Shown here: positions 4,140 to 35,456 of the stretch, piece after piece
How the letters are laid out: the number at the start of each line of letters is the position of its first letter
Position numbering within the stretch: position 1 is the first letter of the stretch
Virus record (IMG/VR): IMGVR_UViG_3300045968_000110
Coordinates: 1-36,764 of that record
DNA length: 36,764 nt
Direction: 5' to 3' (one strand)
Source: a virus
Translations under genes and position numbers: made by a program
Notes under the pieces: generated by a model
The model's database searches: none
What the model saw: only the letters and a program-made list of their open reading frames with translations
Told to the model about the DNA's origin: nothing

Positions 4140-6045
4140 TCACAGGCGCCCGATCGGGGACCCCTGCCATACCTGGAGCCTGGGACACTGTCCCACCCTG
4201 CTGGAGCGCTTGCGCCTGCTTCGCCGCGGCCTGCGCGGCGGCGGTCGCGAGTTGCTTGCACCGCTTCAGGTAGCGCCGTACGCGCTCGAGATGCTTCTCC
4301 GGAACGCCGTCCTCTTCGCCCTGGGACAGGTACTCCGTGCCGATCTCGATGGCCAGGGCGTAATTCGTGAACTCGTCGGGCATGAACGCCGCGACCTTGT
4401 CGTACAGCATCGCCTCGAACTTCTTTTCCAGGCCCCGCTCCTGCGACATCTGGCGGTTGACGCGCCCGTCTGCGTCCAGGTCCTGGATGTAACCCGCCAG
4501 GCGCTCCGGCTTCCACGCGCCGATCTCGATCATGCGCTCACCGAACGCCACGAGGCCCGCCGGGTCGGTCGGCACCGGCGACGCAGGCTTGATCTCGAGC
4601 ACGTAGTCAGCCCGGTCGATGGCCACGTCCTTCCAGTCGGTCATCGTGAGTCCGCGCTTGCCCGGCACGGCAACGCGGTAGCTCGTCTTCTGCTTCTTGC
4701 GGTCCTTGTTGTTCTCCGACCGCGTGACGCAGTCGCGGACCACGGACAGGGCCGCGTCGACGCAGTCCAGGTGGAACTGCTCCCAGCGCTGCTGCCGGAT
4801 GCCGTTGCGCTCACTGGATGACGCCTTCTCCTCGCGCTTGGCGGCGCCGCTGGCGTCGAGGCCCGTGTTCGTCTGGGCCTGCGATGCGTGCAGGTTGATG
4901 CCCAGGTTTTCGAAAATGCGCTGGCCGTCGCGCTCCACCGCCGCCTCCCAGACGTCGGTGACGTTGTCGAACTTGATCTGCTGCGGGCCGACGGGGCCAT
5001 TGCCCTCCCAGACGGTCCCGATCTCGTTCGTGAACTTCGCCTGCGCCATCTTCGCGGCCTTGTCCACGTATAGGTGGCCGGAGTGACAGAGCTTGCGGGC
5101 CTTCTCGATCCGCCACTCGTTCGCGTTGATGCGGCACTGTAGCTTGCGAGCCTGCGTCATGAGTCCCAGGCCCCACCCGGTCGCGAAACGGTCCTCGATC
5201 GAGAAAAACACGATCTCGTGGATCGGCTTGGTGTAGGGCTCGACCGTCAGGGCGCCGTCGTGCACGTCCAGGGCGACGACGTGCCAGCCATCGCCGGCGC
5301 CCTCCTCGCTCGGCAGCGTCCACCCCTCGAACACCTCGATGTGGTCCGACGGCGCGCCACTGGTGGCGACCGGGTTCGCGTTCTCGATCGCCTTGTCCGC
5401 TGCCGGCGTGCCGCCGAAGTTCGCCCCGACCACGGCGCGCGGCATCGGGCGGTGGCGGTAGATCGTCCGCCACTGCTTGTTCACCATGCCGTCCAGCGGA
5501 TCGATCGCCAGCTCCGTGGCCAGCACGCGCTCCGCCGCGCAGCGGCCGTTCCGGCGGAAGAACTGGATCGCTCCCACGCCGCTCTCCAGGATCGCCGCGT
5601 CCATGAACGCGCGCTGGCGCAGCTGGTGTAGCTTCAGCTCCAGCACCAGGCCGTCCGTGAAGTTCTGGAGCTCGCGGGCGCGGCGCCGCTGTCGGTAGTT
5701 GCCGTCAACCACCATGAACCGGGCACGCTGGTTCGTACTTGCCACCTGCGCGAACAGCGTGTCGATCGCCGCCTTCGCCCGGTTGTTCGTCGACTGCTCC
5801 GGCACCGGCAGCGACATCGACGTCGACTCCGCATAGTAGGCGCCCGCGAAGTTGTAGAGCGTGATGATCGGGTTGTTCTCGAACAGCCGGACGTTGAACA
5901 GGTCACGGTCGCGGCGGTACGTCTCCGCCGGTAGGTCGCAGATGATCCGTTGCGCCATGACCGCGCGCCGCGCGCGCTCCTGATCGGGCAGTGCCGCATC
6001 CGACCAGTCGAACGACTCGCCGCGGGCCGGCCGCGCCTCCGCCAT
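4117..6045 (-). CDS. portal protein
   Basis: 642 residues, ATG start overlapping the previous stop as TGATG. Forms the dodecameric vertex through which DNA is packaged. The N-terminal part (YRRDRDLFNVRLFENNP, then YNFAGAYYAESTSMSLP) and the helical middle with ARKLQCRINANEWR followed by an extended central domain fit podovirus-type portals. Size is normal for the class. The last 27 or so residues are encoded by repeats R2 and R1 (GGTVSQAP and VPDRAPVNA), so the natural C-terminus appears to have been extended by the repeats that drive the scaffold gene. Confidence 0.88.
   Translation of the reverse strand: MAEARPARGESFDWSDAALPDQERARRAVMAQRIICDLPAETYRRDRDLFNVRLFENNPIITLYNFAGAYYAESTSMSLPVPEQSTNNRAKAAIDTLFAQVASTNQRARFMVVDGNYRQRRRARELQNFTDGLVLELKLHQLRQRAFMDAAILESGVGAIQFFRRNGRCAAERVLATELAIDPLDGMVNKQWRTIYRHRPMPRAVVGANFGGTPAADKAIENANPVATSGAPSDHIEVFEGWTLPSEEGAGDGWHVVALDVHDGALTVEPYTKPIHEIVFFSIEDRFATGWGLGLMTQARKLQCRINANEWRIEKARKLCHSGHLYVDKAAKMAQAKFTNEIGTVWEGNGPVGPQQIKFDNVTDVWEAAVERDGQRIFENLGINLHASQAQTNTGLDASGAAKREEKASSSERNGIRQQRWEQFHLDCVDAALSVVRDCVTRSENNKDRKKQKTSYRVAVPGKRGLTMTDWKDVAIDRADYVLEIKPASPVPTDPAGLVAFGERMIEIGAWKPERLAGYIQDLDADGRVNRQMSQERGLEKKFEAMLYDKVAAFMPDEFTNYALAIEIGTEYLSQGEEDGVPEKHLERVRRYLKRCKQLATAAAQAAAKQAQALQQGGTVSQAPGMAGVPDRAPVNADAVAA
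4140..4162 (-). repeat. repeat R1, copy A (upstream of scaffold gene)
   Basis: Identical 23-bp element, also at 6542, 25699, 31050 and 35434; plus-strand core GGCGCCCGATCGGGGACC. On the coding strand it ends TGTGA and is followed at once by the ATG of the scaffold gene. It contains the 10-bp palindrome CCCGATCGGG and could fold as an RNA hairpin with the loop GAUC. It lies 12 bases from repeat R2 copy 1. Here it is translated as part of the portal C-terminus. Confidence 0.9.
4175..4198 (-). repeat. repeat R2, copy 1 (palindromic)
   Basis: 24-bp element whose centre is the palindrome TGGGACACTGTCCCA; the flanks (GGAGCC on one side, CCC on the other) are shared with the copies at 9242 and 22583 and, inverted, at 6580. 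It lies 36 bases upstream of the scaffold start, in the portal C-terminal coding region. The symmetric core is what one expects of a dimeric DNA-binding regulator's operator. Confidence 0.85.
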
Positions 6046-6332
6046 CAGGCCGCCTTCTTCTTGCCGAAGTTGGCTCGCTCGAGCGCGGCGTCGCTCGACT
6101 CGACCACGGGCGCCCGGGCGTCATCCGGGTCGCGCGCCAGCGTCGGCAGGTCTGCGTCAAGATCCAGCGGCCGGCCGTCCTTGTCCCGGAACGGCGTGAC
6201 CGGCAATGGCCCGGGCGAGAACTCGACGTCGATCGAGTCGATCTCCGCGCCCTCGAACGTCGCGCGCACCTTGGCGCAGCCGCCCGCGCGCAGCTTGTCC
6301 AGGAGCCCGGCGACCGCCGCCGCGTCCATCAC
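6045..6332 (-). CDS. hypothetical protein
   Basis: 95 residues. GTG at 6332 or ATG at 6329 are both possible; both overlap the preceding stop. A short helical N-terminus is followed by a beta-rich stretch (CAKVRATFEGAEIDSIDVEF) and a Lys-rich end. No family recognised. It lies between terminase and portal and is translationally coupled to the portal gene (TGATG). Confidence 0.6.
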   Translation of the reverse strand: MMDAAAVAGLLDKLRAGGCAKVRATFEGAEIDSIDVEFSPGPLPVTPFRDKDGRPLDLDADLPTLARDPDDARAPVVESSDAALERANFGKKKAA

Positions 6333-6523
6333 TTCCGGCCGCGGGCCTTCGGCTCGGCCGCTTCAGGTGCTTCCGCGGCTGGCTCGTCGCCGGCCACCAC
6401 GATGCCGACGACCCGGCGCCCGTTGATGGCGCCCGTCAGGCCGACAAGCTGCGGGTGCTCCTCGATCGCCTTTCGCAGCCCAGCGCCGCGCACCTCGTCC
6501 AGTTCGACCGTTTCCTTGCGCAT
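6329..6523 (-). CDS. small hypothetical protein
   Basis: 64 residues, ATG start preceded by a good Shine-Dalgarno GGAGG at 6 bases. The N-terminal half shows a helix plus GLTGAINGRRVVGIVVAGDE; the end is Ala/Glu/Lys-rich and disordered. No family recognised. It is the first gene after the R2-R1 pair at 6542-6603 and is the only R1-linked gene with its own conventional ribosome-binding site. Confidence 0.6.
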   Translation of the reverse strand: MRKETVELDEVRGAGLRKAIEEHPQLVGLTGAINGRRVVGIVVAGDEPAAEAPEAAEPKARGRK

Positions 6524-6541
6524 GTGTGCCTCCGTGGGGTT

Positions 6542-6564
6542 TCACAGGCGCCCGATCGGGGACC
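6542..6564 (-). repeat. repeat R1, copy B
   Basis: Identical to the copies at 4140, 25699, 31050 and 35434. It ends 18 bases before the ATG of the 64-residue gene at 6523, not directly against it. It lies in the roughly 100-base gap after the terminase gene, 15 bases from R2 copy 2, repeating the R2-R1 pairing seen before the scaffold gene. Confidence 0.9.
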
Positions 6565-6579
6565 GCCGGCACGGCGGGA

Positions 6580-6603
6580 GGGTGGGACAATGTCCCAGGC
6601 TCC
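6580..6603 (+). repeat. repeat R2, copy 2 (inverted relative to others)
   Basis: Same 24-bp element with core TGGGACAATGTCCCA, but its asymmetric flanks are reversed relative to copies 1, 3 and 4. It lies between the terminase stop (6624) and R1 copy B, which would place it at a promoter or operator for the portal-capsid segment. Tolerance of inversion is expected if only the palindromic core matters. Confidence 0.85.
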
Positions 6604-6623
6604 AGGCTCGCAAAGCCGCGTGA

Positions 6624-8123
6624 TTACTGGTACAGGTCGTCGCTCAGGTCGGCGAACTCGTCGGCGTCGTACCCGGCGGCTGCCGCGCGCTCTGCGCGCA
6701 CGCCGTCGGTGACGTGCTTGACCTGCTCCAGGTACGCCAACCGCTTCGCCTGCGCGTCGGTCAGCACGCGCGGCGGGTCCGGCAGCAGGTTGGCGAGTTC
6801 CAGGGCGGCGTAGCGCGTGGTCGGCACGATGTCGCTGTGGCCCGTCTCGACGATCTTCCCGTTGACGATCCCGTCCTTCCACTCGCTGTTGCGGACCTGG
6901 GCGTAGAAGGCGGACGTGCGCGCGCACTTGAACCCGCGGCGCAGGCGGTCGTTCAGCGCCTTGACCTGCAGGTTGACGGCGGGCTTCGTGACCGCGCGGA
7001 CCGGGACGCGGTGGTGCAGCAGCTTCTGGATCGTCATCAGCGTCTTCAGGCCCAGGCCGCCAGCGTCGAACGCCACCAGCACCGGGTCGTATTCGTCCAC
7101 CAGCTTCTCGACCGCGTCCGCCAGGTCCAGCGTGTCCTGGCCGCGCTTGATGACCTCGCGGACCAGATACAGCGTCGGGTCGTCGTCTCCCCAACCGTAC
7201 ACGCCCGCCGCGTCGGCGTCGCGCACGCCCATGTCGCCGATGATGGCGAAGTGCGTGAGCGTCGGGATGCCGTCGAAGGCGTTGCGGTCGTCGTGGAAGT
7301 GGTACACGCGGCGGGCTAGGTCCACCGCCCACTGCGCCAAGATCTCCCGCTGGTACCAGACGTCATCACGCGTCTGGCCCTCCTCGGCCAGCATCTCGTC
7401 CACCACGTGCTCGATCGCCTCGCGCGTCCCCAGCTTCGTGTTCTCGTACACCGTGCATCGGTCCGACCCAGGCTCCGCCGCGAACCGCCCCACGCCCGGC
7501 CGTTGCAGGTACTCCCAGAACGTGCCGAGCTTGCCAGCGGGGTTCGGCGTGCCCATCAGCCAGAGCTGCGCCGTGCGGCCCTGGGCGCGCAGGTCGATGA
7601 ACATCGCCTTGATGACGTCCAGCACCAGATAGTCCAGGACGTCCTTTTTGTACCGCTGCGATTCGTCGACGCAGACGAACGCCACGCGCGACAGGCCGCG
7701 CACCTTGTCCGCCGCGGCGTCCGCGTCGACCGGCAGCAGCACGATCTGCGAGCCGTTGCGCAGCGTCACCGTCCACCCCTCGACGCCCTTCAGGAACGAA
7801 CCGCCCAGGCCGTGGGCGCGGTTGAGCTCGCGGAGCGTCTTCCAGAAGATGCGGCTGATCGATCCCTGCGTCGCGCCGATCAGGCAGCACGTCACACCCG
7901 GCGTCGCCAGCGCCACTGCGTACGCCTTCACGCACGCCAGGACCGACTTGCCCCACCGGCGGCCGGCGCAGATTACAACCGTCGCCAGCGTGCACAGGAA
8001 CGCCGCGAGCTGGCCGGCGTGCAGCACCTTGGCCGCCTCCAGCGTCACAGCCTGGCCGGCGGCGGCGCGCTCCCTGCGCTCCCGCTCCTTGATGGCCGCG
8101 CGCTTCAGCGCGGCGCCGGTCAC
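6624..8123 (-). CDS. terL: terminase large subunit
   Basis: 499 residues, GTG start overlapping the previous stop. The packaging motor: an N-terminal ATPase that translocates DNA and a C-terminal nuclease that cuts it. Visible motifs: Walker A GRRWGKS (54-60), Walker B VCVDES with D153/E154, GTPNP (191-195), and an RNase H-like nuclease domain with D297 (IIGDMGV), D353 (LVAFDAGG) and a further Asp in GHSDIVPTTR. Length is normal. TerS lies just upstream and portal downstream, as usual. The end-type of packaging cannot be assigned from the sequence alone. Confidence 0.93.
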   Translation of the reverse strand: MTGAALKRAAIKERERRERAAAGQAVTLEAAKVLHAGQLAAFLCTLATVVICAGRRWGKSVLACVKAYAVALATPGVTCCLIGATQGSISRIFWKTLRELNRAHGLGGSFLKGVEGWTVTLRNGSQIVLLPVDADAAADKVRGLSRVAFVCVDESQRYKKDVLDYLVLDVIKAMFIDLRAQGRTAQLWLMGTPNPAGKLGTFWEYLQRPGVGRFAAEPGSDRCTVYENTKLGTREAIEHVVDEMLAEEGQTRDDVWYQREILAQWAVDLARRVYHFHDDRNAFDGIPTLTHFAIIGDMGVRDADAAGVYGWGDDDPTLYLVREVIKRGQDTLDLADAVEKLVDEYDPVLVAFDAGGLGLKTLMTIQKLLHHRVPVRAVTKPAVNLQVKALNDRLRRGFKCARTSAFYAQVRNSEWKDGIVNGKIVETGHSDIVPTTRYAALELANLLPDPPRVLTDAQAKRLAYLEQVKHVTDGVRAERAAAAGYDADEFADLSDDLYQ

Positions 8124-8392
8124 GTGTCCGGCCAGGCTTCGCCGGTCGTGTCGTACGCGATCACCACCGTGCCCGCCGTGGCCAGCCTCAACTTACGATC
8201 GTCTTCGAAGTGCAGGTGCAAGTCGCGATGCAACCAAGCCCACGGCTCAAGCCCGATCTTGACGCGCGCCGGAAATCGCCCGCGCTCCAACACGCTGATG
8301 GCCAGGTCGCAGATCGCGCCGTAGACGGTCGCCCCGTTCGCCACCCAATCTGGCTCCGGGCCGTCCCAAGGTTCACCCCTGGCAAGCGTCAA
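8120..8392 (-). CDS. hypothetical protein between terminase subunits
   Basis: About 90 residues if translation starts at the TTG overlapping the TerS stop (TTGA); longer upstream starts would run through TerS in another frame. Contains a helix (GAICDLAISVLERGRF) and a beta-rich stretch (LEPWAWLHRDLHLHFED, then KLRLATAGTVVIAYDTTG). It overlaps the terminase start by 4 bases, which supports its being a translated gene. No family recognised. Confidence 0.5.
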   Translation of the reverse strand: MTLARGEPWDGPEPDWVANGATVYGAICDLAISVLERGRFPARVKIGLEPWAWLHRDLHLHFEDDRKLRLATAGTVVIAYDTTGEAWPDT

Positions 8393-8754
8393 TTCAGATG
8401 CTCCGCCAGCCACTCGACCACCTCCGGCGGCGCGTCCGACAGGTCGGCCTTGATCTCTCGCACCGGCCCCTCGACGCGGTTCAGGTACAACTCCATGTAC
8501 GCCTCGCTGTGCCTCCGGACGTGGCCGCACACCGCGCCCTCGTGAAACTTCGGCTCGTCCCACCCCTCCACGGCCAGCTCGCGCAGCTTGGCGTACACCT
8601 CGCGCATGTTCTCGACCGTGCGGTGCTCGGCGTCCAGCATGCGCTGGATCTCGCGCAGCGACTTCGGCCGCCCTCCAGGGTTCGCCGTGCCGCCCGGCAG
8701 GAGTTGCCCCTTCGCGTTTCGCGCGGGCTTCTTGTTCTGAAGCCGCTCAGCCAA
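8389..8754 (-). CDS. terminase small subunit-like DNA-binding protein
   Basis: 121 residues, TTG start. The start is set by a strong Shine-Dalgarno AAGGAGA ending 6 bases upstream. The N-terminus carries GQLLPGGTANPGGRPK, the hallmark of a family (DUF5681-like) often encoded directly before large terminases, followed by helices (SLREIQRMLDAEHRTVENM). It is expected to recognise phage DNA and feed it to TerL. Gene order agrees. Small terminases diverge quickly, so this is a family-and-context call. Confidence 0.72.
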   Translation of the reverse strand: MAERLQNKKPARNAKGQLLPGGTANPGGRPKSLREIQRMLDAEHRTVENMREVYAKLRELAVEGWDEPKFHEGAVCGHVRRHSEAYMELYLNRVEGPVREIKADLSDAPPEVVEWLAEHLN

Positions 8755-8830
8755 GTCGCTTCTCCTTGAGCGCCTTCGCGCCGGACTCCGACGCTTGTCG
8801 GATAGCCCGCCGCAGATCGTCCAGCGTCAC
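8747..8830 (-). CDS. very small hypothetical ORF (27 residues)
   Basis: A GTG start overlaps the previous gene's stop (GTGA) with GGAGG-like bases upstream, and its end overlaps the TerS start. The product is one amphipathic helix (VTLDDLRRAIRQASESG, then KALKEKRLG). The tight overlap at both ends matches the style of neighbouring junctions, but the ORF is so short that chance is possible. It also holds the Shine-Dalgarno of TerS. Confidence 0.35.
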   Translation of the reverse strand: MTLDDLRRAIRQASESGAKALKEKRLG

Positions 8831-9630
8831 CCTGCCGCCCCCTCCGGCTCCACGCGGTCGGCCTGCAGGATGCCGTCCCAGGGCACCGTGATGGTCGTGC
8901 GCGTGTTCTCGCCGTTCGTCTTCGTCTCGAGTTCCACGTTGATGCCGCCGGCGTGCGGCACGCCTTCCACCTCGATGAACATCCGGCGCTGGCGGGCGCC
9001 GATGCGTGGGTCTCGGACGTCGATGTCTCGTTTGAGCAAGATCCTGGTGTAGTGCACTCGCTTTGGCTCGGCCATGGGCTCCTCCTTCGGTTCGTCCTCC
9101 GGCGGCACCAGCCGCAAGAGCATCGGGTCACCGCCGAACAGATCGCGCAGTTTCCCCCTGTCGGCGCACTGAAGCGCCAGCATGCAAACCCTCACTGTTA
9201 CGCGTCGATCCGAGCGCATCAGCAGCCCGCGCACGTCGTCGGGAGCCTGGGACACTGTCCCACCCCCCGCGGCCACCTTTCGCCAAGGGTTATCCACTGG
9301 CGCCGCCGGCGCCCACCGCTCCACACGCTCGATCGCCCGCGTGACCGCGCGCTTAGACGCCTTCAGCTTCGCCGCCAGCAACGCCAGCGGCCGCCCCTGC
9401 GCGTACAGCGACCACACCCGCCGCTGCCACGGCGTATCGAAGCGGTGAGCGCGCAGAACATCTTGCGCCCAGGCAAGCCATGCGCTCACCGCCTCCGGCT
9501 GCGCCGGCCGCGCCGCGGGCGTGCCGCGCCTCCATGATCGTCGCGCCGTGTTCGCTCGAACGAGCTCGCGGTCGATCGGCGCGAGGTTTTCGCTTGCCAA
9601 TCGGCGCTCCCATACAGCAGCCGCGGTCAT
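8827..9630 (-). CDS. HTH DNA-binding protein with C-terminal beta-rich extension
   Basis: 267 residues from the ATG at 9630; first gene of the leftward late block. Residues 60-110 look like a sigma-region-4-type helix-turn-helix (TPWQRRVWSLYAQGRPLALL, then KLKASKRAVTRAIERVERW), as in phage late regulators. A linker encoded by repeat R2 (GGTVSQAP) follows, then a helical section and a beta-rich end (RRMFIEVEGVPHAGGINVEL). An ATG at 9075 with a strong AAGGAGGAG Shine-Dalgarno would make a second, 82-residue product in the same frame. Either one two-part protein or a nested gene; both fit. Confidence 0.6.
   Translation of the reverse strand: MTAAAVWERRLASENLAPIDRELVRANTARRSWRRGTPAARPAQPEAVSAWLAWAQDVLRAHRFDTPWQRRVWSLYAQGRPLALLAAKLKASKRAVTRAIERVERWAPAAPVDNPWRKVAAGGGTVSQAPDDVRGLLMRSDRRVTVRVCMLALQCADRGKLRDLFGGDPMLLRLVPPEDEPKEEPMAEPKRVHYTRILLKRDIDVRDPRIGARQRRMFIEVEGVPHAGGINVELETKTNGENTRTTITVPWDGILQADRVEPEGAAG
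9242..9265 (-). repeat. repeat R2, copy 3
   Basis: 24-bp element with core TGGGACACTGTCCCA, same orientation as copies 1 and 4. It lies inside the 267-residue gene, in frame (GTVSQAP), about 170 bases upstream of the internal start at 9075. No R1 copy accompanies it. Confidence 0.85.
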
Positions 9631-9902
9631 TTTACAAACGACTCGTGGCTTTATTTGCTGCCGTTGTCAACATGTAGTCAAACAACCCCCATGCCGCAAG
9701 GCACACCCGGGGCGATCTTCTCCCCGTCCAGGAAGGCGTCCCTGCTTCAACGCCGCGTGGCTGGCGCCCGTCTGTCGGGCCGGCGCAACGCCGCGGCTAT
9801 GTATTCGAGAGCGCGTCCACGTTCGCATGGCGCGGCAAGCCCCGGTGGCCCGCGCCTCCGCCGTTGCCCCACACGAGGGGCGGCGTTTGCGGTGAGACGT
9901 AT
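9631..9902. other. gap between early and late leftward operons (putative late promoter region)
   Basis: No convincing gene in 272 bases. The part near 9635-9690 is much more AT-rich than its surroundings and, on the minus strand, holds TTGACT (9677-9682) and TTGACA (9665-9670) followed by AAATAA, so it could carry the late promoter; no well-spaced -10 stands out. Near 9866-9881 the inverted repeat GCCCC-ACACGA-GGGGC could end early transcription but lacks a T tract. The ORFs that cross the region look like shadows. Confidence 0.35.
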
Positions 9903-10571
9903 TCATCCGCCCTCGGTGCCCTCCCCTGTCTTGCGCTCGTTAGTGGGAGGGTGAAGCGGGCGCCCGGCGTCGCGACAGGCGGGGGTGCAGTAATGTCGGT
10001 TCGTCGGGTCCATCGGCGCGTAGAAGCCGCTCCACTGCTGCCCGTAAACGTCCGGTTGCCCGCATCCAGGCTTGCACCTCGGCCCCTCGTCTCCTGGCTT
10101 GGGAGGGGCGGGAGCGGTGAGGACGCGGATTGCCCTGTCGAGGATTTCGTAAGCGTCGCCGGGGTTGGGACACTGCGCGCGTGCCGCCTCCAGTGCTTCA
10201 CGAGCTGAGCGGAGTTGGCTGATGAAGACAGCGGCCCGGGAGCACTCCAGTTTCCACAGGGCAATCGATCCGTCCCGTTCCGCCTCTAGTGCTGCGACCT
10301 TGCCGGCGAGTTCTTTCTCACGCTCTGCACGTAAGCAGGTGTCGCGTTCGTGGTCGCGCCCGGCAATCGCCTTGTCCCGAGCCCGCTCCGCCTCGGCCCT
10401 GGCTGCTTCGGAGGTAGCGAGAGCGGCCCGGGCCGTGTGTAGCTCGGCCTCACGGTCGCCAAGGGTTCGCACGACTCGCGTGTACGCCTCCGCAAGCGCT
10501 TCCTCTTCGCCGTCAATCATCCCGTCCTCAAGCTCATCGTGGGTCGCCTTGGACCAATCCTGTGTGCTCAC
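9903..10571 (-). CDS. coiled-coil protein with C-terminal cysteine cluster
   Basis: 222 residues, ATG start overlapping the previous stop (ATGA). Residues 20-140 form a long coiled coil (AELHTARAALATSEAARAEA and following). The C-terminal part carries CKPGCG and HYCTPACRDAG, a CxxxC plus CxxxC arrangement able to bind zinc. It is the last gene of the early leftward operon. No family recognised; the layout suggests an oligomeric protein with a small zinc module. Confidence 0.6.
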   Translation of the reverse strand: MSTQDWSKATHDELEDGMIDGEEEALAEAYTRVVRTLGDREAELHTARAALATSEAARAEAERARDKAIAGRDHERDTCLRAEREKELAGKVAALEAERDGSIALWKLECSRAAVFISQLRSAREALEAARAQCPNPGDAYEILDRAIRVLTAPAPPKPGDEGPRCKPGCGQPDVYGQQWSGFYAPMDPTNRHYCTPACRDAGRPLHPPTNERKTGEGTEGG

Positions 10572-10738
10572 GGCTTCGCCCGCCTTCCTGGTTTCTTGGG
10601 GGTGGGGCGCGAGAGCGGCTTGACGCGCACCGGGCCTTGCGTTGGTATTTCGTGCCCGTCGACAATCATCCTTCCATTGCCGAGCGTGACGCTGTGCCTG
10701 TGCGCATCGGTTCGCAGGCAGTAGGGACAGTCGGTCAT
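10568..10738 (-). CDS. small zinc-motif hypothetical protein
   Basis: 56 residues. The ATG at 10738 is chosen for its GGAGGAGG Shine-Dalgarno and a 4-base overlap with the gene before it. The N-terminus MTDCPYCLRTDAHRH has a CxxC followed by His residues, a likely zinc knuckle; the C-terminus is Lys/Pro/Arg-rich. Probably binds nucleic acid, but no family recognised. Confidence 0.55.
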   Translation of the reverse strand: MTDCPYCLRTDAHRHSVTLGNGRMIVDGHEIPTQGPVRVKPLSRPTPKKPGRRAKP

Positions 10739-11004
10739 CCCCTCCTCCGTTTCTGGCGGGTGGCCGTCCAGTCCCAACTCTGCAATCGATTGGTCCCGTA
10801 GATCGTCCAGCGCGGGTTTATCGGTTGCGGCTTCCCGTACCAGCGGGCGGGGTAGCCGTCGAGGAGAATGGAGGCGGCGTCCATGTGCGTGTGCGGCCAG
10901 TCGAAACGCCACGCGCAGCCACGGCAACGAACGCGACGCCACGGTCGGCGGTGCCGGCGTTCCCAGTTGTTCACCGTGTCGCGCGCCCGCTCCAGCCGGT
11001 TCAC
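10735..11004 (-). CDS. small basic protein with CxxC motif
   Basis: 89 residues, very basic and Trp-rich. Contains VRCRGCAWRFDWPHTHMD, a CxxC followed by two His residues that could complete a zinc site. Start and stop overlap its neighbours by 4 bases each. No family recognised. Confidence 0.55.
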   Translation of the reverse strand: MNRLERARDTVNNWERRHRRPWRRVRCRGCAWRFDWPHTHMDAASILLDGYPARWYGKPQPINPRWTIYGTNRLQSWDWTATRQKRRRG

Positions 11005-11207
11005 CGCTCCCCTCCAGTAGTGCGCCGCTCAAGAAACTCGGCGATGGCAACCTGCATCGCGCTTTCCATGGTCACGCGGTTTTCGGTGCAGAAGGCGCGG
11101 AGGCTTTGCGCAAGCTCGGCCCCGACACGGGCTGCGATGTTCGGATTCGTCGCAGACTTCCGCTGCACTTCCTTCGGCGGTTTCAGTACGTATTCGTTAC
11201 CCGCCAT
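11001..11207 (-). CDS. ribbon-helix-helix-like DNA-binding protein
   Basis: 68 residues from the ATG at 11207, preceded by GGAGG at 6 bases; longer upstream starts are less likely. Residues 18-60 fit the ribbon-helix-helix (Arc/CopG) plan: a short strand (NPNIAARVGAELAQ), a helix (SLRAFCTENRVT) and a second helix (ESAMQVAIAEFLERR). Such proteins bind palindromic operators as dimers, so this is a candidate reader of repeat R2, though nothing here proves it. Confidence 0.55.
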   Translation of the reverse strand: MAGNEYVLKPPKEVQRKSATNPNIAARVGAELAQSLRAFCTENRVTMESAMQVAIAEFLERRTTGGER

Positions 11208-11778
11208 CGCGCCCTCCAGTAGTAGGAGAGGGGCCGAGAAAGGCGCGAGCCCGACAGTACCAGCACGTCGGTTTACCATCGGGGTCCGTGAGGTCGATGC
11301 AGAACGATTCGCCGGGGTTGGCGCCAGCCGACGCTTCCACGCACGTCCAGGAATTCGCCTCCTCCCGCAGCAACCCCTCAGCCTCAGCCAGACGGCTAGC
11401 GAGGGAGGCGCGGTCGGATTCGATTGCAGCGGTCAGTGCAGCGATGTAGTTGGCCTTCGTGTTGTATGGCTCGCGGGCGGCAAATTCCTCGGCCACGCTT
11501 CGCGCACTCTGCCCAACAGGGGCGGCAGCCTCTTGGTGGGTGCGGAGGGCGGCGCGTTCGTAGCTTTCGAGGGCTTCAAGCAGGGACGCAACCGCGTCGC
11601 CGTAATCGTAGACACGCGGCGGGATTCTGTGCGCTTGGCTCTCGCCCGTCCTCCTAGCCTCGGTCGCAAGCTCTTGAAGCTGGCGCGTGTACTGGTTCTG
11701 TGCGTCTCGGACGCGGCGAATCTCGCGGGCCGCGTCGACCAAGCCGGCCGTGGCCTCCCGTAGTCCGTTGGGGGTCAT
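11197..11778 (-). CDS. coiled-coil hypothetical protein with CxxC
   Basis: 193 residues from the ATG at 11778 that overlaps the preceding stop (ATGA). Mostly helical with coiled-coil character (residues 5-60 and 85-135). The C-terminal section holds SWTCVEAS and CIDLTDPDGKPTCWYCRA, a likely small zinc-binding unit. Part of the run of coiled-coil and zinc-motif genes at the end of the early operon. No family recognised. Confidence 0.55.
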   Translation of the reverse strand: MTPNGLREATAGLVDAAREIRRVRDAQNQYTRQLQELATEARRTGESQAHRIPPRVYDYGDAVASLLEALESYERAALRTHQEAAAPVGQSARSVAEEFAAREPYNTKANYIAALTAAIESDRASLASRLAEAEGLLREEANSWTCVEASAGANPGESFCIDLTDPDGKPTCWYCRARAFLGPSPTTGGRDGG

Positions 11779-23221: not shown

Positions 23222-23224
23222 CTC

Positions 23225-23810: not shown

Positions 23811-23825
23811 TGGGCGAAGGGTAAC

Positions 23826-25062: not shown

Positions 25063-25071
25063 GGCTGGCCG

Positions 25072-25698: not shown

Positions 25699-25721
25699 TC
25701 ACAGGCGCCCGATCGGGGACC
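25699..25721 (-). repeat. repeat R1, copy C
   Basis: Identical to the other four copies; on the coding strand it abuts the ATG at 25698 without a spacer. No R2 element is adjacent. It occupies the short gap behind the 289-residue gene. Confidence 0.9.
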
Positions 25722-25723
25722 CG

Positions 25724-28296: not shown

Positions 28297-30029
28297 CACT
28301 TCACCTTGTGGTACTTGCCGTCCGCTCCAAGCTCGTACTTGATGCCGCCGGGAGCGGTGATCGTGCTGCCCGCGGCGGCGGTGCGGCGCTGGCGCATCCC
28401 TGGCACGTAGGTGTCGAGGTACACCGGGATCTCCTTGGCGACCCACGGGGTGTTTTCCGCAACGCCCTGGAGCCGGGTTTCGATCTGGCCGCCGATGCGG
28501 TCGAGCTCAGCCAGGGCGCCCTTCGCCAGCTGGCGGATGGCGTCGCCGACGATCTTGGCCTTCGCCGGGGCCATGTTGCCGTTCGTCCAGTCGTTGATGA
28601 ACTGGTCGACGGCCGCGCCCGACAGCTTGCCGCCCACGCGCTTCCAAAACAGATCCATGTCGCTGTCGCTGATGACGCCCGTACCGCCCTGGGCCATCTT
28701 CACGAACTGTCCGGCGCCCGCCGCCGCCAGCGCCGCGTTGGTGGTCGCGCCGGAGAGCGTGCGTGCCATCTGGTTGTACTTCGCGTTCTGGGCGGCGGAC
28801 TCCTTGTACCCGGTGTTCTGGATCACCTTCTGCACGATGCCGTCGACACGGGCCTGGTCCTGCAGCGACTTGGACTCCTTCTTCTCCTCGCGCGCCAGCT
28901 TCTTGTCTGCGAGCCGATCGTCGAACTCGCGCTTTCGCTCGCCCAGGTTCGCGCGCGCGAGCGCCAGCGTCGCCGCCGCCTGCTGCCGCTGGTCGCGGTG
29001 CCCCTCCTCGCGGTTGTGGATGTCGCCTTCGTGCGCGGCGGCCTTCTGGAGCGCGTCCACCAGCACGACGTTGCCCTTGACCTGTGCCTCCGGCACGCCC
29101 GCCCGGCGCAGCTGCTCGTCCGCCTCGCGGGCGATGGCGCGGTACCGGGCCGCGAAGTCCGCGTCCAGGTCGTTCATCGCCGCCCGGTGCGCCTCCTGCG
29201 CGTCCTTGGCGCCGTGGCGGGCCATGAGGACGTTGTCCCCGGCCTGGGCCAGCCTCGCCCGCTTCGCGTCGTACTCGCGCTTCATGCGGTCGTTGATGCC
29301 CTTCAGACCCTCGTTCTGGTTACTAGGCGCGTGCCCGGCCTGGATGGCGGCGACGTTGCCCAGGCCAGCCGCGAAGCCGCCGATGAGGATGGCGGCGATC
29401 TCGCGCCCGGTGTGCGGGCGATCCCACTTGAACCCCTCGACGTCCCGGGCCGCCGCGAGCCGGGCGTTCACGGCCTCGTTGATCTGCGTCGCCCGCGCGT
29501 CCCGCGCCAGCTTGGCGCGCGCGATCTCCGCCTTCTTCTCGCGCGCCTCGACCGCGGCAACCTCGGCCTCCTTCTGCCCGCGCATCGCCCCCACGGCCGC
29601 GGCGTGCTGCGCCAGCGCCGTCTGCCGCTTCGTCAGCTCGCCGTGGTGGTCGACCAGGGAGCGCTGGTACGCGGCGTTCAGCGCCACGTCCTTCTGCGGG
29701 TCGCCCGTGAACGCGGGCGGCGGCGGCGGCGGGCCGAGCTCCGGGAACTGCGGCGCGGGCGGATACGCGCTGGTAGCAGGGGCTGGAGTCGAACCAGCTG
29801 CGACAGGCGTATGAGGCCCATCTGCCGCCACGGCTCCCTGCTGTGGAACTTCCGGCTCGGCAACCAGCGGCTCCGAGGTGACGTCCTCATCCGTCAGCGC
29901 GTCCGCGTCCAGGTCGAGCGCGGCGTCGATGGCAACGTCCGGCGTGGTGGTGCCGCCGGCCAGGTAGTCCCGCGCCTGCTGGACGTCGCTGTCCTCGTCC
30001 TCGTCGTCCGCGACGAACCCGACGCCCAT
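28296..30029 (-). CDS. coiled-coil internal virion protein, probable
   Basis: 577 residues, ATG start. Residues 1-110 are acidic and Pro-rich, including a PPPPPP run. Residues 120-190 and 245-360 form long coiled coils (AEVAAVEAREKKAEIARAKL, then ARANLGERKREFDDRLADKK). Between them is a hydrophobic segment (REIAAILIGGFAAGLGNVAA, about 205-224), a possible membrane span. The C-terminal part (about 390-540) is globular and ends in a short basic tail. A likely ejected core protein of a podovirus-like virion. No enzyme motif seen. Confidence 0.55.
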   Translation of the reverse strand: MGVGFVADDEDEDSDVQQARDYLAGGTTTPDVAIDAALDLDADALTDEDVTSEPLVAEPEVPQQGAVAADGPHTPVAAGSTPAPATSAYPPAPQFPELGPPPPPPAFTGDPQKDVALNAAYQRSLVDHHGELTKRQTALAQHAAAVGAMRGQKEAEVAAVEAREKKAEIARAKLARDARATQINEAVNARLAAARDVEGFKWDRPHTGREIAAILIGGFAAGLGNVAAIQAGHAPSNQNEGLKGINDRMKREYDAKRARLAQAGDNVLMARHGAKDAQEAHRAAMNDLDADFAARYRAIAREADEQLRRAGVPEAQVKGNVVLVDALQKAAAHEGDIHNREEGHRDQRQQAAATLALARANLGERKREFDDRLADKKLAREEKKESKSLQDQARVDGIVQKVIQNTGYKESAAQNAKYNQMARTLSGATTNAALAAAGAGQFVKMAQGGTGVISDSDMDLFWKRVGGKLSGAAVDQFINDWTNGNMAPAKAKIVGDAIRQLAKGALAELDRIGGQIETRLQGVAENTPWVAKEIPVYLDTYVPGMRQRRTAAAGSTITAPGGIKYELGADGKYHKVK

Positions 30030-31048
30030 CAGGCCGCCTTGCGCAGCGACACCAGCGGCTTCTTCGTCTCGCGTAGCGCCTGCGCGGACATCGCCAGCGC
30101 GGCGCCCACGGCGTTCCCGACGTCGAGCTTCAGCCGGCCGGCGCCGTCCATCTTGACCATGCCCTTGCCGATCGGGCCGCCCTTCTGCGCGTCCTGGGCC
30201 ATCACGCCAACGCGCTCGCCCTCGCCGTGCGCCTGGTCCTTGTAGCGGAACCGGAAGCCCTTCAGCGACTCGGCCAGCTTCTCCAGCTTCGCCGGCTTGA
30301 CGTCTTCCTTCAGCCGCTCGTCGGAGAACATCTGCCCGATCGCCTTCGCCCCCTCCATGTTGAACTGGTTCGTGGCCGCGGCGTTCAGGTTCTCGCCCTT
30401 GAACTGCGCGCCGGCAGCGTCGATCCCTGAATCGAGGGTCTTCACCTCTCCGCCCAGCAACGCCTTCCGCCAGTCCACGTCGGCGCCGAGCAGGCCCTGG
30501 TCTCCCGCGCGCTGCTGCGCCAGCACCTGGCCGAGGAGCGCGCGCGCCCGCTCCTGCTCGCCCGCGCGCAGCATGGCCGCGTCAACGTTCGTCCCCGCCT
30601 GCGTGGCGAGCGCGCCGAGTCGCCCGGATCGCAGCGCGGCGCCCGGGTTGCGTCCCTGGAGCGCAGCGGCCAGCCCGAACTGCCGGGCGGCGTTAACGCC
30701 GGCTTGGCGCCGCAGTTGGATCTCCGCCAGCGACGGCACCTTGCCGGCGGCTGCGCCTGCCAGGTCGGCGGCCAGCATCCGCTGGCGCATGGCGCCGTAG
30801 CGGTCTGACGCCGGGTCGAAGTGGCCACCGAAGCCGGCGCGCTCGGCGGCCAGCTTGTCCTGCGTCCCGAAGGCGCGGTTCATCGCCGCGGTCAGGTTGG
30901 CGGTGCTGGCCTTCTCCGGGCCTACCTTCGGGCCGCCCTGCCTGATGATCGTCAGCGGGTTGTCGCTGCCCGTGAGAAACGGCGTTCCAAGCGGATCCTC
31001 CGGGACGTTTTCATCCCAGGCGCTTTCGAAGTCACCGTAAATGCCCAT
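30029..31048 (-). CDS. tail protein with S74-type intramolecular chaperone
   Basis: 339 residues from the ATG at 31048 directly behind repeat R1; the longer frame to 31090 runs through the repeat. Residues 50-180 are helical, Ala-rich. Residue 241 begins FSDERLKEDVKPA, the start of an S74/endosialidase-type chaperone, with Ser242 the expected self-cleavage site, then FRFRYKDQAHGEGERVGVMA and the helical end (VGAALAMSAQALRET). This domain trimerises tail fibres or spikes and may be cut off afterwards. Confidence 0.75.
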   Translation of the reverse strand: MGIYGDFESAWDENVPEDPLGTPFLTGSDNPLTIIRQGGPKVGPEKASTANLTAAMNRAFGTQDKLAAERAGFGGHFDPASDRYGAMRQRMLAADLAGAAAGKVPSLAEIQLRRQAGVNAARQFGLAAALQGRNPGAALRSGRLGALATQAGTNVDAAMLRAGEQERARALLGQVLAQQRAGDQGLLGADVDWRKALLGGEVKTLDSGIDAAGAQFKGENLNAAATNQFNMEGAKAIGQMFSDERLKEDVKPAKLEKLAESLKGFRFRYKDQAHGEGERVGVMAQDAQKGGPIGKGMVKMDGAGRLKLDVGNAVGAALAMSAQALRETKKPLVSLRKAA

Positions 31049-31049
31049 C

Positions 31050-31072
31050 TCACAGGCGCCCGATCGGGGACC
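31050..31072 (-). repeat. repeat R1, copy D
   Basis: Identical 23-bp element, one base from the ATG at 31048. It sits in the 41-base divergent gap between the S74 tail gene (left) and the plus-strand lipoprotein gene (right), so it marks the boundary of the lipoprotein insertion. Confidence 0.9.
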
Positions 31073-31089
31073 CGTGTTACGCTCGGGCA

Positions 31090-31518
31090 ATGCGGTGGAT
31101 TTGGCTGCTAGCAGTCTTCGCCGCCTGTGCCCAGGGCGAGACGCGCAGGATCGGTCGCACGGTGTACCGTCCGAGCACCGAGAATGGCGGTGGATACGGC
31201 TACTCGGACGTCCAGCTAAACGGGCAAACGTTCCGGGTCACGTTCGTCGCCACCTCGCCCAGGGAGGCCAGGGACGGCGCGCTGCTCCGCGCCGCGGAGG
31301 TCACGTTGCTCGCCGGCGCCGACGGGTTCGTGATCGCCCAACAGGAAGATCTGATGGACCAGGCCACGCGCACCCGGTTCGTCGTCGGCCGCGTTCGGCG
31401 GAATATTCCTACCACCGTCCTGACCATCAACCCGCTCCTGCGAAGAGAATTCGCGAGGGTGCCGCCCGGCACCACGGTCTACGACGCGCGCCTGATCGCG
31501 CCGCAACCGGGCAACTAG
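31090..31518 (+). CDS. CC0125/CC1285-like lipoprotein (moron)
   Basis: 142 residues, ATG start, plus strand inside a minus-strand late region. Signal peptide with lipobox-like end (RWIWLLAVFAAC, Cys13 as lipid anchor). The mature part has YGYSDVQLNGQTFRVTFVAT and REARDGALLRAAEVTLLAGA, the pattern I know from the CC0125/CC1285 lipoprotein family of bacterial envelopes. Orientation and content suggest a cargo gene that changes the lysogen's surface rather than a virion part. Convergent with the next gene; the stops overlap by 4 bases. Confidence 0.7.
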   Translation: MRWIWLLAVFAACAQGETRRIGRTVYRPSTENGGGYGYSDVQLNGQTFRVTFVATSPREARDGALLRAAEVTLLAGADGFVIAQQEDLMDQATRTRFVVGRVRRNIPTTVLTINPLLRREFARVPPGTTVYDARLIAPQPGN

Positions 31519-31955
31519 ATCGCCGGCACGACGAGGCGCACGAACAGGTATTCCGCGCGGCACTCCGTCGCCGGGCGCTCGAAGCGGATGTCGACGCTGC
31601 ACGTGCCGTCTGCGCCCGGCGCGATCGTGTAGCTGCCGACGTCCGGCCACGCGCCGAAGAAGTCCACCGTCCCGTTCACGACGGTGACGCGGATGTCTCC
31701 GGTGGACGGCGTGCCGCATCGATTCCACACGGGCGCCTCGTCTGTCCCGGAGATCTGCTCGATCGGGATCGCGCACGACGTCGCCGGCGCACCGCCCTGC
31801 CCAGCCGTCCCGCTCGCGCCCGCGGCGCCGCCGCCAGTGGTGCCGGCCGTGCCCATGTCGCCACCCGCGCCGCCGGTCCCCGGTCCGGCAGTGGCAGCCT
31901 CGCCGCAACCAACAACGAGAAACGCCAGCAACGCCAACGAACGCATAGACACCAT
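31515..31955 (-). CDS. secreted lipoprotein with Gly/Thr-rich linker
   Basis: 146 residues from the ATG at 31955 (31946 also possible). Lipoprotein signal LALLAFLVVGC (lipobox LVVGC with Cys17), then a Gly/Thr/Ala linker (about 20-52), then a beta-rich domain with cysteines (ATSCAIPIEQ, WNRCGTPS, GTCSVDIRF, TECRAEY) that probably form disulphides outside the cytoplasm. The linker style is common in Myxococcota lipoproteins. Partner of the oppositely oriented lipoprotein; likely the same cargo unit. Confidence 0.65.
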   Translation of the reverse strand: MVSMRSLALLAFLVVGCGEAATAGPGTGGAGGDMGTAGTTGGGAAGASGTAGQGGAPATSCAIPIEQISGTDEAPVWNRCGTPSTGDIRVTVVNGTVDFFGAWPDVGSYTIAPGADGTCSVDIRFERPATECRAEYLFVRLVVPAI

Positions 31956-32001
31956 GTTTGCACCCGCTCCAACGAACGCGCAAGGGCAAGATTCCCGAGC
32001 C

Positions 32002-32016
32002 GGGGACAGTGTCACC
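32002..32016. promoter_or_regulatory. degenerate R2-like palindrome
   Basis: GGGGACAGTGTCACC resembles the R2 core with three mismatches, 47 bases upstream of the lipoprotein start at 31955, in the 92-base gap behind the nozzle gene. May be a decayed or weak operator of the same system. Otherwise nothing recognised in that gap. Confidence 0.4.
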
Positions 32017-32047
32017 TGCTCCAACCAACGTGAACGTAATGAGTACG

Positions 32048-35000
32048 CTACGTTAGCCGGTTGCCGCTGGCCGTTTTCCGCAGGCCTTCTTTGACGGCGT
32101 ACACGACGGTCAGCCCGGTCAGCTTGGGCCCGGCGAAGTTGACGGAGCCGCCTTCCTTCTGGGAGATCGTGACGCCGATCTTGAGGGCCGATACCTTGGC
32201 CGAGTAGCGGAGCTCCACGGCGTTGATGTCGTCGGTGACGAGCATGTTGCGTGCGACGGTCGCCAGCGGGGTGTCGTCGAAGTCCTTGAACAGTGTGAGC
32301 GTGACCCTGTACCCGGGATCGTCCTCGTCGGAGATGATCCTCTTTTCCCCGGTCAGCTGAACGCGCTTGAACCGGAAGTACCCCTTGAGCTTGGCGATCG
32401 AGATCCACGGCGTCTCCGCGTACAGCGCGACGGGCCCTGAGCTGTCGTCGAAGACGGTCCCGGTGATGTCCTCGGCGATCATGAACATGGCGACCTGGCC
32501 CTGTTGCTGCCGCACCATCCGCCCGCCGTACGCGGTCGCCGATTCGCACGCCCCGACGTCCACGTCCCAGAGCTTCGTCACGTGGTCATAGACCAAGATC
32601 TGGCCGGCGGAGGTGACGAACTTCGTCTGGAGTGTTTCGGGGATGTGCACTGCTTCTACGACCGAGAGCCCGCGCAGGTTCTCCTGGACCGGCTTGCCGA
32701 TCTGGTCGTCGATGGCGAGGCCGCGATTCACCATGAAGATGCCGCTCCGGTTGCTGATCGACCGGAACATCACGCCGTCGGGAGTCGACACGATCGAGCG
32801 CGGCTCCACGGTGCCGATGCCGGCGGCGATCAGCTGCGCCAGGCCGAAGGTGCCGTTGCCCTGCAGGTCCGGGCCGTCGCCCAGGACGGCGTAGATCGCG
32901 TCCCGCTTGAACAGGATCGACCGGTCGTCCGCCGCCGCGCCGCCGATCAGGTCGCCGCGGCCGTCGTCGACGCGGAAGCTGCTCACGCTGTTGAAGCGCG
33001 GGCCCTCGGTCTCCGACAGCGGCAGCGACACCAGCACGCGCGTCGGGTCGGTCGCGTCGATGACCGCCAGGCGATCCTTGACCGGCCACACCGCCAGCGC
33101 GGGCGGCGGCGGTTCTGGCTCCAGTACGTCGCCGTCGGATGGCGATTCCTGGCCAAGCGCGATCTGGGCGTCCGAGGCGGTGATGTCGACGGTGACGGTG
33201 TCGACGGTTTCGACGTTCGCCACGGCCGCGACCAGGCGGTGGTCATCCGGCGCGTTGTTCGTGGTGCAGTACACCTCGATCGCGGCTTTCCCGGGGCGCC
33301 CGTGCAGCTTCAACGTCTTGATGACCGCGCGAATCGTCCGGTTGGCGCCAGACAGAGAGATCTCCGTGGGCGCCGACGCCTGCGACACCCGGCGTCGGCC
33401 GAAGTCGTCCGTGTAGCGATAGAGGGCCAGCACGCTGTAATTCCCCGGCGACGACAGGCTGCCGCCGGCAACCTGGGACAGCGCGGGCGGCTCCGGGTAG
33501 AGGTGGAAGCCCTCTTCGGCGAACGTGACGCCGTCGAAGGCGCCCAGGACCCCGCCGCAGACGTACAGGCTGTCGGCGAACTCCCGCGGGCTGTTCACGT
33601 TCGCCGGGTTGAAGGTGAGCGTCAGGGTATCCACGCCGCTGTCAAGCGACGTGCCCGACGGGAGCTGGACGAGGCGCATGGAGATCTTCGCCGCGCCCAG
33701 GAACACGTGCGTCGACAGCGTATGCACGTCCGGCGGCGCTCCGGTGTCGCGGACTCCGATCAGACCGGCGAACGCCTTGGCGCTGGGCGTGCGGTTGCCG
33801 TCGGTCGCGTCGGTGACAGACACGGACGGCACGCGCACCGTGAACAGCGTCCCCTGCTCGTCGCTCTCGTACGCCACCTGCACGTAGAAGCCGCTCTCGT
33901 GGGAGAACGTCATCGACCCGAGCGACGCGGACCAGATCCAGGTCGCGGTTCCGATCGACCCGCCGAAGCGCCGGCCGTACAGGATGCGCTGTGTCCCGGC
34001 GCCGGCGTTGTTGGCGTAGAGGACGACGAATTCGCCGGTGGCGTTGTTCGTGATGGTGTGGCCGGCGAGCTGGACGACGTCCGCGCCGAACCCGGCGTCC
34101 ACGGTGTAGCTCGAGGCCGGCAGGCCCGTCCCGAGGTTGATGTCCCACTGGACGGTCACGCCCTGGGCGCCGGACGCCACGATCGCCGCGAACCGGCCCG
34201 ACCCCGACCAGTCCCGCATCCAGGCGAAGACCCCCGGAGACACCGCGCCGCCGCCCGACGTCGTCAGGTTGTTCGCGGTGACCACGCCAGCGCCATCTCG
34301 CCGCAGGATCCGCGTCGTCGCGCCGGCATAGATCACCAGCAGCTCGTTTCCGTTCGCCAGGACGTCGAAGCGGTCGCTGGTCGCGTCGGTGGCCAGCGTG
34401 AACACGCTGGACGGCTGCCCGTTTCCGGCCGTCAGGTTCGAGATCGACCACAGGACCATCTCGATATTGGCGGCGTCGCGCACCACGAGCTGCAGCTGCG
34501 AATTGACGAACGCGGCCCGGCAGCTCGAGCTGCCGTAGGTAACGGCGTCACTGTGGATAAACAGCGTCTTTCCGGTAGAGAGCTCTAGGATCTGCGCCTT
34601 CGCCGCCGCGGTCAGCGCCACGTCGTTCGACTGGATCCAGCATACCAGCGCGTACGTGCCGTTCGTGGCCACGTTGACGCTGGTGACGCGGGCGGAGCTG
34701 TTGACCGCGTTCGACCGGAAGACCGTGCCCCGCGCGGGCATGACCTGGCCGCGAAGCTTCGACTGGACGCCGGCATTCACGGCCTCGATGTTCGTGCCGG
34801 CGGAGGCCGCCCACTTGTTCAGGCCCGGCGAGTAGACGCCGATATTCCGCAGGCCGGCCTTCGACAGGGACACGAGGGCGCCCTTGTGCGTGGCGAGTTG
34901 CCAGGACGGCGGCATGTTCCCGGGTGTCTGTGCCGCGTACTGGCCGCCCAGAAACGCCGACCCGTTGCGCTTGACGAGCTCGCCCGATCGCAGCCAGGTC

Positions 35001-35107
35001 GCGTTCTGCAGGAGGGGGACCTTGCCTACCGGCAGCAGCTTGTCGTCGATGTCCGACTGGAGCCCGAGCCCGAGCGGGATCTCCAGCTTGTCGAACGTCA
35101 GCGGCAT
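32048..35107 (-). CDS. tail nozzle / stabilisation beta-propeller protein
   Basis: 1019 residues, ATG start as TGATG with the previous gene. The N-terminus (IPLGLGLQSDIDDKLLPVGK, LLQNATWLRSGELVKRNGS) is the hallmark of nozzle-type tail proteins, which cap the short tail and fit a propeller fold; many beta repeats follow. Later motifs include WPVKDRLAVIDATDPTRVLV and FRVDDGRGDLIGGAAADDRS, then SIVSTPDGVMFRSISNRSGIF. The length is at the large end of the class. It is the main reason to regard this as podovirus-like. Confidence 0.75.
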   Translation of the reverse strand: MPLTFDKLEIPLGLGLQSDIDDKLLPVGKVPLLQNATWLRSGELVKRNGSAFLGGQYAAQTPGNMPPSWQLATHKGALVSLSKAGLRNIGVYSPGLNKWAASAGTNIEAVNAGVQSKLRGQVMPARGTVFRSNAVNSSARVTSVNVATNGTYALVCWIQSNDVALTAAAKAQILELSTGKTLFIHSDAVTYGSSSCRAAFVNSQLQLVVRDAANIEMVLWSISNLTAGNGQPSSVFTLATDATSDRFDVLANGNELLVIYAGATTRILRRDGAGVVTANNLTTSGGGAVSPGVFAWMRDWSGSGRFAAIVASGAQGVTVQWDINLGTGLPASSYTVDAGFGADVVQLAGHTITNNATGEFVVLYANNAGAGTQRILYGRRFGGSIGTATWIWSASLGSMTFSHESGFYVQVAYESDEQGTLFTVRVPSVSVTDATDGNRTPSAKAFAGLIGVRDTGAPPDVHTLSTHVFLGAAKISMRLVQLPSGTSLDSGVDTLTLTFNPANVNSPREFADSLYVCGGVLGAFDGVTFAEEGFHLYPEPPALSQVAGGSLSSPGNYSVLALYRYTDDFGRRRVSQASAPTEISLSGANRTIRAVIKTLKLHGRPGKAAIEVYCTTNNAPDDHRLVAAVANVETVDTVTVDITASDAQIALGQESPSDGDVLEPEPPPPALAVWPVKDRLAVIDATDPTRVLVSLPLSETEGPRFNSVSSFRVDDGRGDLIGGAAADDRSILFKRDAIYAVLGDGPDLQGNGTFGLAQLIAAGIGTVEPRSIVSTPDGVMFRSISNRSGIFMVNRGLAIDDQIGKPVQENLRGLSVVEAVHIPETLQTKFVTSAGQILVYDHVTKLWDVDVGACESATAYGGRMVRQQQGQVAMFMIAEDITGTVFDDSSGPVALYAETPWISIAKLKGYFRFKRVQLTGEKRIISDEDDPGYRVTLTLFKDFDDTPLATVARNMLVTDDINAVELRYSAKVSALKIGVTISQKEGGSVNFAGPKLTGLTVVYAVKEGLRKTASGNRLT

Positions 35108-35433
35108 CAGCCCAGCGTCAGCTCGTCACCGAAGACGGCCATGACGACCACGTTGGCGACGCTCGCGAACGCCTGGATCACTTCGGCCGCCTCCATGACC
35201 TGGTACGGGTACCAGTCGAACGGCTGCCCCGACGGGACGCTGAAGGCGTCGAACAGACGCGTGCCCGCGGCATCGGCGCCCAGGCTCACGGTGACGGTGA
35301 CCGGGGCGCCGCTCGCGTTGAACAGGTGGACGTGGCGGACGATCGCCTTCGTCCCGGCAGGGACCGTGTACTTGGTCGCCGCGGCGCCCGACAGCTGGGC
35401 CGGTCCGAACAGGCGTTTCGCCGTCTTCGCCAT
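35107..35433 (-). CDS. small virion structural protein
   Basis: 108 residues; ATG directly behind repeat R1 copy E. Sequence FGPAQLSGAAATKYTVPAGT, VRHVHLFNASGAPVTVTVSL, FDWYPYQVMEAAEVIQAFA and VFGDELT follows a pattern widespread among phage virion proteins of the tail region, a jelly-roll-like module. Its stop overlaps the nozzle start. Confidence 0.65.
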   Translation of the reverse strand: MAKTAKRLFGPAQLSGAAATKYTVPAGTKAIVRHVHLFNASGAPVTVTVSLGADAAGTRLFDAFSVPSGQPFDWYPYQVMEAAEVIQAFASVANVVVMAVFGDELTLG

Positions 35434-35456
35434 TCACAGGCGCCCGATCGGGGACC
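35434..35456 (-). repeat. repeat R1, copy E
   Basis: Identical to the other copies, directly against the ATG at 35433, between the stop of the 130-residue gene and the small virion gene that leads into the nozzle gene. Confidence 0.9.

Follow-up and report, generated by a model that had tools for sequence, protein, structure and literature searches.

A phage genome from the IMG/VR collection repeats a short element at the starts of several virion genes. Comparison with related contigs strongly supports the view that it is dedicated to the expression of selected late genes. We think it fairly probable that the element is a compact late promoter of which each phage has its own version, used here at several virion genes or operons.

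An element repeated at virion gene starts

The window analysed here is one whole IMG/VR record (IMGVR_UViG_3300045968_000110; 36,764 bases, without end repeats). We call its phage W and its 23-bp element R1, which reads GGTCCCCGATCGGGCGCCTGTGA on the minus strand. As the sequence-only reading had reported, R1 occurs in five identical copies on the coding strand of virion-region genes, all of which lie on the minus strand (Table 1). A search of both strands of the window allowing up to three mismatches found no further match, and shuffled sequences gave none, so that the expected number is 0. Four copies are indeed fused to an ATG: those at 4140, 25699 and 35434 abut it, and a single G intervenes at 31050. 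At 4140, the portal-like ORF of W reads through R1 into the next gene (4117-4162), whereas in relatives the homologous ORF ends a few bases short of the element. The portal-like function was assigned by position, and the scaffold-like name of the following gene rests on position and on an acidic N-terminus in relatives.

The fifth copy, at 6542, stands apart from its start codon. The 64-aa ORF behind it has its own Shine-Dalgarno sequence (SD), and codon usage favors the ATG at 6523 (log-odds of +0.43 per codon) over a GTG inside R1 (-1.24), which was ruled out as a start, its frame lacking phage-like codon usage. This ORF has no counterpart between the element and g7 in the relative G002.

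The earlier observation that the four fused starts lack an SD is true, but SDs are also weak at several other genes of W. Across the 31 element instances collected from W and its relatives, the first base of the element lies 20-27 nt from the start codon in 30, and the lone exception carries an SD. At element starts SD pairing was weaker, averaging -2.4 kcal/mol, compared with -5.6 kcal/mol for 61 other starts (P about 1e-7 after collapsing repeats).

Table 1. Features of the W genome discussed in the text, with positions in the window and, for R1 copies, the counterparts in related contigs (positions in those contigs in brackets).
Feature	Position	Strand	Description	Counterparts
R1 copy	4140-4162	-	Abuts ATG of scaffold-like gene; within 3' end of portal-like ORF	G002 (10556), G003 (7064), G007 (18641), L059-L061, L063, L066, L034, L077
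R1 copy	6542-6564	-	18 nt upstream of ATG 6523; sole R1 copy with an SD after it	G002 (8311), G003 (4878), G007 (16495), L006, L031, L034, L066, L063 (2821)
R1 copy	25699-25721	-	Abuts ATG of the 208-aa gene	G002 (24899), G003 (21730), G007 (32211)
R1 copy	31050-31072	-	1 nt from ATG (31048) of tail-fibre gene	G002 (19200), G003 (15627), G007 (26444)
R1 copy	35434-35456	-	Abuts ATG of the 108-aa gene	Not found in relatives
Scaffold-like protein, 327 aa	3156-4139	-	First gene after R1 4140; 36-44% identity to relatives	
Portal-like protein, 642 aa	4117-6045	-	57-59% identity to relatives	
64-aa ORF	6329-6523	-	Downstream of R1 6542	
SD GGAGG of 64-aa ORF	6529-6533	-	Duplex -9.5 kcal/mol; five bases before ATG	
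Terminase large subunit	6624-8123	-	Anchor gene for finding relatives	
g11, conserved helix-turn-helix protein	8827-9630	-	Beside terminase genes; candidate trans-acting factor	
DNA-binding-like protein	23292-23867		HTH_23 match below cut-off	
Virion-region protein, 208 aa	25072-25698	-	First gene after R1 25699; 49-52% identity to relatives	
Tail-fibre protein	30029-31048	-	Peptidase_S74 domain; first gene after R1 31050	
108-aa protein	35107-35433	-	First gene after R1 35434	
TGGGACANTGTCCCA palindrome	4181-4195, 6583-6597, 9248-9262, 22589-22603		Four exact copies within a ~30-bp repeat	
GCGGCGTATGGGGGTGCCCTGTGA repeat	13286-13309, 13513-13536, 14139-14162	-	Between consecutive early genes	
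Lipoprotein-like genes	31090-31518; 31515-31955	+; -	Inserted between 1019-aa gene and R1 31050	
Mgm101-like single-strand annealing protein	21622-22650		Pfam E 1.5e-49	
Exonuclease	20790-21476			
Integrase	19543-20478			
ParB-like protein	17710-18768			
tRNA-Met call	29771-29842		Within virion gene; chance match possible	

Related contigs carry their own versions

Exact R1 had no match in viral contigs. The terminase, portal and capsid of W had no match among annotated phages at the DNA or protein level, no cultured phage matched, and a search of the genome collection returned only distant terminases of other phages. Uncultivated contigs did match W. Chief among these contigs are G002 (36.1 kb), G003 (23.6 kb) and G007 (38.6 kb, a complete relative with a 99-bp terminal repeat), with 50-65% identity to W in terminase, portal and capsid.

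About ten or eleven related uncultivated contigs hold their own version of the element at the same gene starts. G002 has five copies of GGTATCCAACGCCGCTT; G003 has the same repeat, also in five copies, one with one mismatch; and G007 has four copies of GGCCCTCCCCATG(Y)(Y)GACT. Further versions were found in shorter contigs: GGTCCCCAAACGCGACGTGTGAG, then ATG (L006); GGTCACCAATCGCAGTAAGGC, then GTG (L031); GGTCCCCATTCC... (L059 and L060); GGTCCCCAAAGGCCCCATCTGTGA, then ATG (L061); GGACCCATCCGCGC, three copies (L063); GGGCCCGCCCCATAGCGCCG, two copies (L066); GGCCCTCCCCATGCGGGCA, two copies (L034); and GTACCCCACCCGCGCGACGGGTGA, then ATG (L077). Versions are near-identical inside one phage and different between phages. 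Four sites are common to W, G002, G003 and G007, namely before the small gene and portal, the scaffold-like gene, the tail-fibre gene and the homologue of 25072-25698. The fifth site, at 35434 in W, lies before a different gene in G002 (24075) and G003 (20909). The motif search in relatives upstream of orthologous genes, which the sequence-only reading had proposed, thus bore out its idea of a dedicated element for selected late genes, and the random placement in related genomes that would have spoken against this idea did not occur.

In the more distant relatives L074 and L076 the element is absent at the tail-fibre junction, where GAGG stands close to the start; after the portal gene of L074 it is also absent, with an ordinary SD instead. 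Single matches to the G002 17-mer in G004, G005 and G006 were dismissed as chance.

A leave-one-genome-out profile ranked all five W copies 2-6 among all positions on both strands. For G002, four of the five copies were among the first five; for G007, one copy alone came near the top, indicating that the G007 branch has diverged more. Because a profile made from the other genomes recovers the W copies, the elements of W and its relatives are probably homologous, forming one family. Identity within a genome together with divergence between genomes suggests a cognate recogniser that co-evolves with the element. Such a pattern is what one would expect if a single factor of the phage read every copy.

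A pyrimidine-purine step moves with the element

We aligned the 31 instances on their CCCCA core. All have CC at positions 6-7 and most have GC at 14-15; positions 16-20 are variable and are followed by a pyrimidine-purine (YR) step at 21-22. The lineage consensus is roughly GGTCCCCAnnC(N)2GC(N)5-YR. In a test made after seeing the alignment, the YR step was at 21/22 in 14 of 16 collapsed rows, which none of 50,000 shuffles reproduced, and no other position was comparable. It falls one base further along in L061 and L077. The start codon lies anywhere from element position 22 to 28, and the YR step stays with the element, not with the codon. Transcription usually starts at a YR step, and one that is fixed while the start codon moves looks like a transcription start.

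Among the three mechanisms offered by the sequence-only reading, a promoter giving leaderless mRNA fits best, because the YR step follows the element and the lone distant copy has an SD of its own. The missing SD where the start codon is close and the good SD at the distant copy both fit a fixed 5' end near position 22. RNA would begin at the purine of element position 22, the presumed transcription start, which precedes the start codon by 0-3 nt, or by up to 6 nt in one relative. The products would be leaderless or near-leaderless mRNAs with a leader of about 0-6 nt, for which an SD would not be needed; at 6542, RNA begun at that purine would have a leader of 20 nt that includes an ordinary GGAGG. 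A phage-encoded factor, for which g11 is a candidate, would read the element, and transcription from it would presumably be late.

Other explanations

An element of 20-24 nt before the start codon might instead act in the mRNA as a translation-initiation signal in place of the SD, recognised by the ribosome or by an RNA-binding protein of the phage. The narrow distance to the start codon is what such an element would require, the SD is absent, the element often fills the gap between an upstream stop and the next start, and the start-associated sequence (SAS) of cluster K phages has been proposed to act in translation (PMC3203893). We nevertheless judge this explanation unlikely. R1 6542 is intact in every base although the start 18 nt away has its own SD, and such preservation away from a start codon is hard to explain for a translation-only element; moreover, the YR step tracks the element and not the start codon. 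There is neither unusual pairing with the 16S 3' end nor a conserved RNA structure. Extended pairing to a generic 16S 3' end, considered since the G002 element resembles the complement by eye, was overall no better than in shuffles. The earlier suggestion of a hairpin stood in so far as R1 folds on paper at -8.3 kcal/mol, but the stem is not conserved: when all 31 instances were folded, relatives folded weakly and differently, and we rejected the hairpin as a functional structure. With neither the stem nor the CCCGATCGGG palindrome conserved in relatives, the proposed hairpin switch of translation was not supported.

The element could also be where a phage regulator of late genes binds, be it a repressor, an activator or an antiterminator, rather than the promoter itself. 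R1 contains a 10-bp palindrome, a helix-turn-helix protein is conserved beside the terminase, and repeated regulator sites are known, such as the cluster A stoperators (as cited in PMC3203893). The palindrome is missing in relatives, however, and all copies share one orientation and lie at starts; a regulator site alone would leave the missing SD and the YR step unexplained. We regard it as distinctly improbable.

Cleavage of a long late transcript, with new 5' ends arising at start codons, would likewise leave leaderless ends at one fixed point of the element, and to that extent the processing option of the earlier reading is compatible with the data. Nothing points to processing, however: there is no conserved structure, the Rfam scan gave no match, and no phage ribonuclease was recognised in the scans made, so that this option is less probable still. 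That R1 is a neutral or mobile repeat lying between genes by chance is hardly credible, although the W genome does contain scattered short palindromes of a different type, given phage-specific versions at the same gene starts on the same strand over about eleven contigs.

Promoter classes and candidate readers

No sigma-70-like site (-35 and -10 hexamers) was found in window positions 1-12000 and 24000-36764, and the element did not match known promoter classes. A sigma-54 promoter was rejected by eye, the GG-to-GC spacing being 13 and not 12. Literature searches found no description of the element.

No RNA polymerase was found among W proteins (30 compared with PHROGs, 20 with Pfam). A PF00940 search of four genomes was empty, with a control that was also silent, and a very diverged enzyme could escape it. 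No sigma factor was found in the window, and for a weak Sigma70_r4 match in G002, a Pfam scan of part of that locus, in an unchecked frame, gave no confirmation.

Two DNA-binding-like proteins, g11 and the product of 23292-23867, recur in W, G002 and G007. The structure model of g11 has low confidence overall, but its helix-turn-helix part is good, and it has a C-terminal beta domain. The helix-turn-helix model resembles NarL, KorA and sigma region 4 in weak matches. The recognition helix is nearly the same in phages with the same element, a pattern that also follows the phage tree and is therefore weak evidence. We infer that g11 is the best candidate partner of the element. All g11 homologues combine a helix-turn-helix N-terminal half with the conserved beta domain, and most have an in-frame Met before that domain, so a shorter second product is possible.

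Other repeats and genes

Two copies of the TGGGACANTGTCCCA palindrome lie exactly 18 bp upstream of R1, and the others are inside genes; the copies in g11 and in the portal C-terminus are both translated as GGTVSQAP. Comparable palindromes (GGAACA..TGTTACG) precede some of the elements in relatives. The palindrome could be a dispersed repeat, an operator or a centromere-like site. As an obligate part of the element it was rejected, being present at only two of the five R1 copies and elsewhere inside genes. A second repeat, GCGGCGTATGGGGGTGCCCTGTGA, lies across junctions between consecutive early genes, overlapping the stop of one and the likely GTG start of the next, and holds the SD-like GGGGGTG.

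The lipoprotein-like pair is absent at the corresponding junction in G002 and G003, and a degenerate palindrome at 32002 is left on its far side. The pair looks like a moron, and its glycine-rich linker suggests a myxobacterial host. The Mgm101-like protein and the nearby exonuclease form a recombination pair, and the ParB-like protein occurs in a phage that also has an integrase.

Discussion

T7 class III promoters are about 23 bp long, occur as identical copies spaced through the virion operons of a genome, diverge between phages together with the polymerase, and are read by T7 RNA polymerase. R1 is likewise a conserved 23-bp repeat at late operons; however, its sequence is unlike that of T7 and a single-subunit RNA polymerase was not recognised in W. 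In T7, late mRNAs carry a leader that includes a ribosome-binding site; R1 abuts the start codon without such a site.

The SAS of cluster K mycobacteriophages, a short oriented repeat a few bases from the start codons of selected genes and absent elsewhere, is 13 bp long (GGGATAGGAGCCC), contains AGGAG, occurs 11-19 times, in non-structural genes, and varies little across the cluster; about half of the copies have an upstream inverted repeat, and the ESAS were later read as promoters (PMC3203893, PMC11373665, PMC12699233). The R1 family also lies within a few nt of start codons in one orientation. In contrast to the SAS, it lacks the 13-bp GGGATAGGAGCCC with its SD core AGGAG in both W and relatives, has no SD, is 21-24 bp long, occurs in 4-5 copies and varies from phage to phage. 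The SAS is restricted to the non-structural half, whereas all five R1 copies precede virion-region genes. The R1 element resembles T7 class III promoters in function and SAS/ESAS in its position at start codons, yet lacks defining features of each.

Like T4 and AR9 late promoters, R1 would be a short late promoter without a -35 box that ends at or just before the transcription start. The AR9 late promoter is AACA-N6-TA/G with leaders of 26-491 nt (PMC5312081); the T4 and AR9 promoters have known readers, a phage-specific sigma factor or polymerase, whereas R1 is GC-rich with a predicted leader of 0-6 nt. In mycobacterial leaderless mRNAs the start codon is at or beside the 5' end without an SD, as a general feature of host genes (PMC4633059), whereas the R1 family is a repeated element dedicated to chosen genes of the phage. 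As a phage-specific late promoter the element would be of a known kind, but unusually tied to leaderless starts.

More tentatively, we propose that small temperate phages of a lineage with no cultured relatives may use a so far undescribed form of late transcription, with a GC-rich promoter of about 21 bp that has no -35 box, is read with the aid of a phage factor (perhaps g11), places 5' ends on start codons and has its own sequence in each phage. If true, a compact, portable signal would tie the start of transcription to that of translation at chosen virion genes, as a private code for each phage in genomes of only 36-39 kb with no recognised polymerase or sigma factor, and a phage transcription factor of a new kind could be what reads it. 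The element also offers a means of calling late genes and correcting start codons in a lineage for which no cultured member was found.
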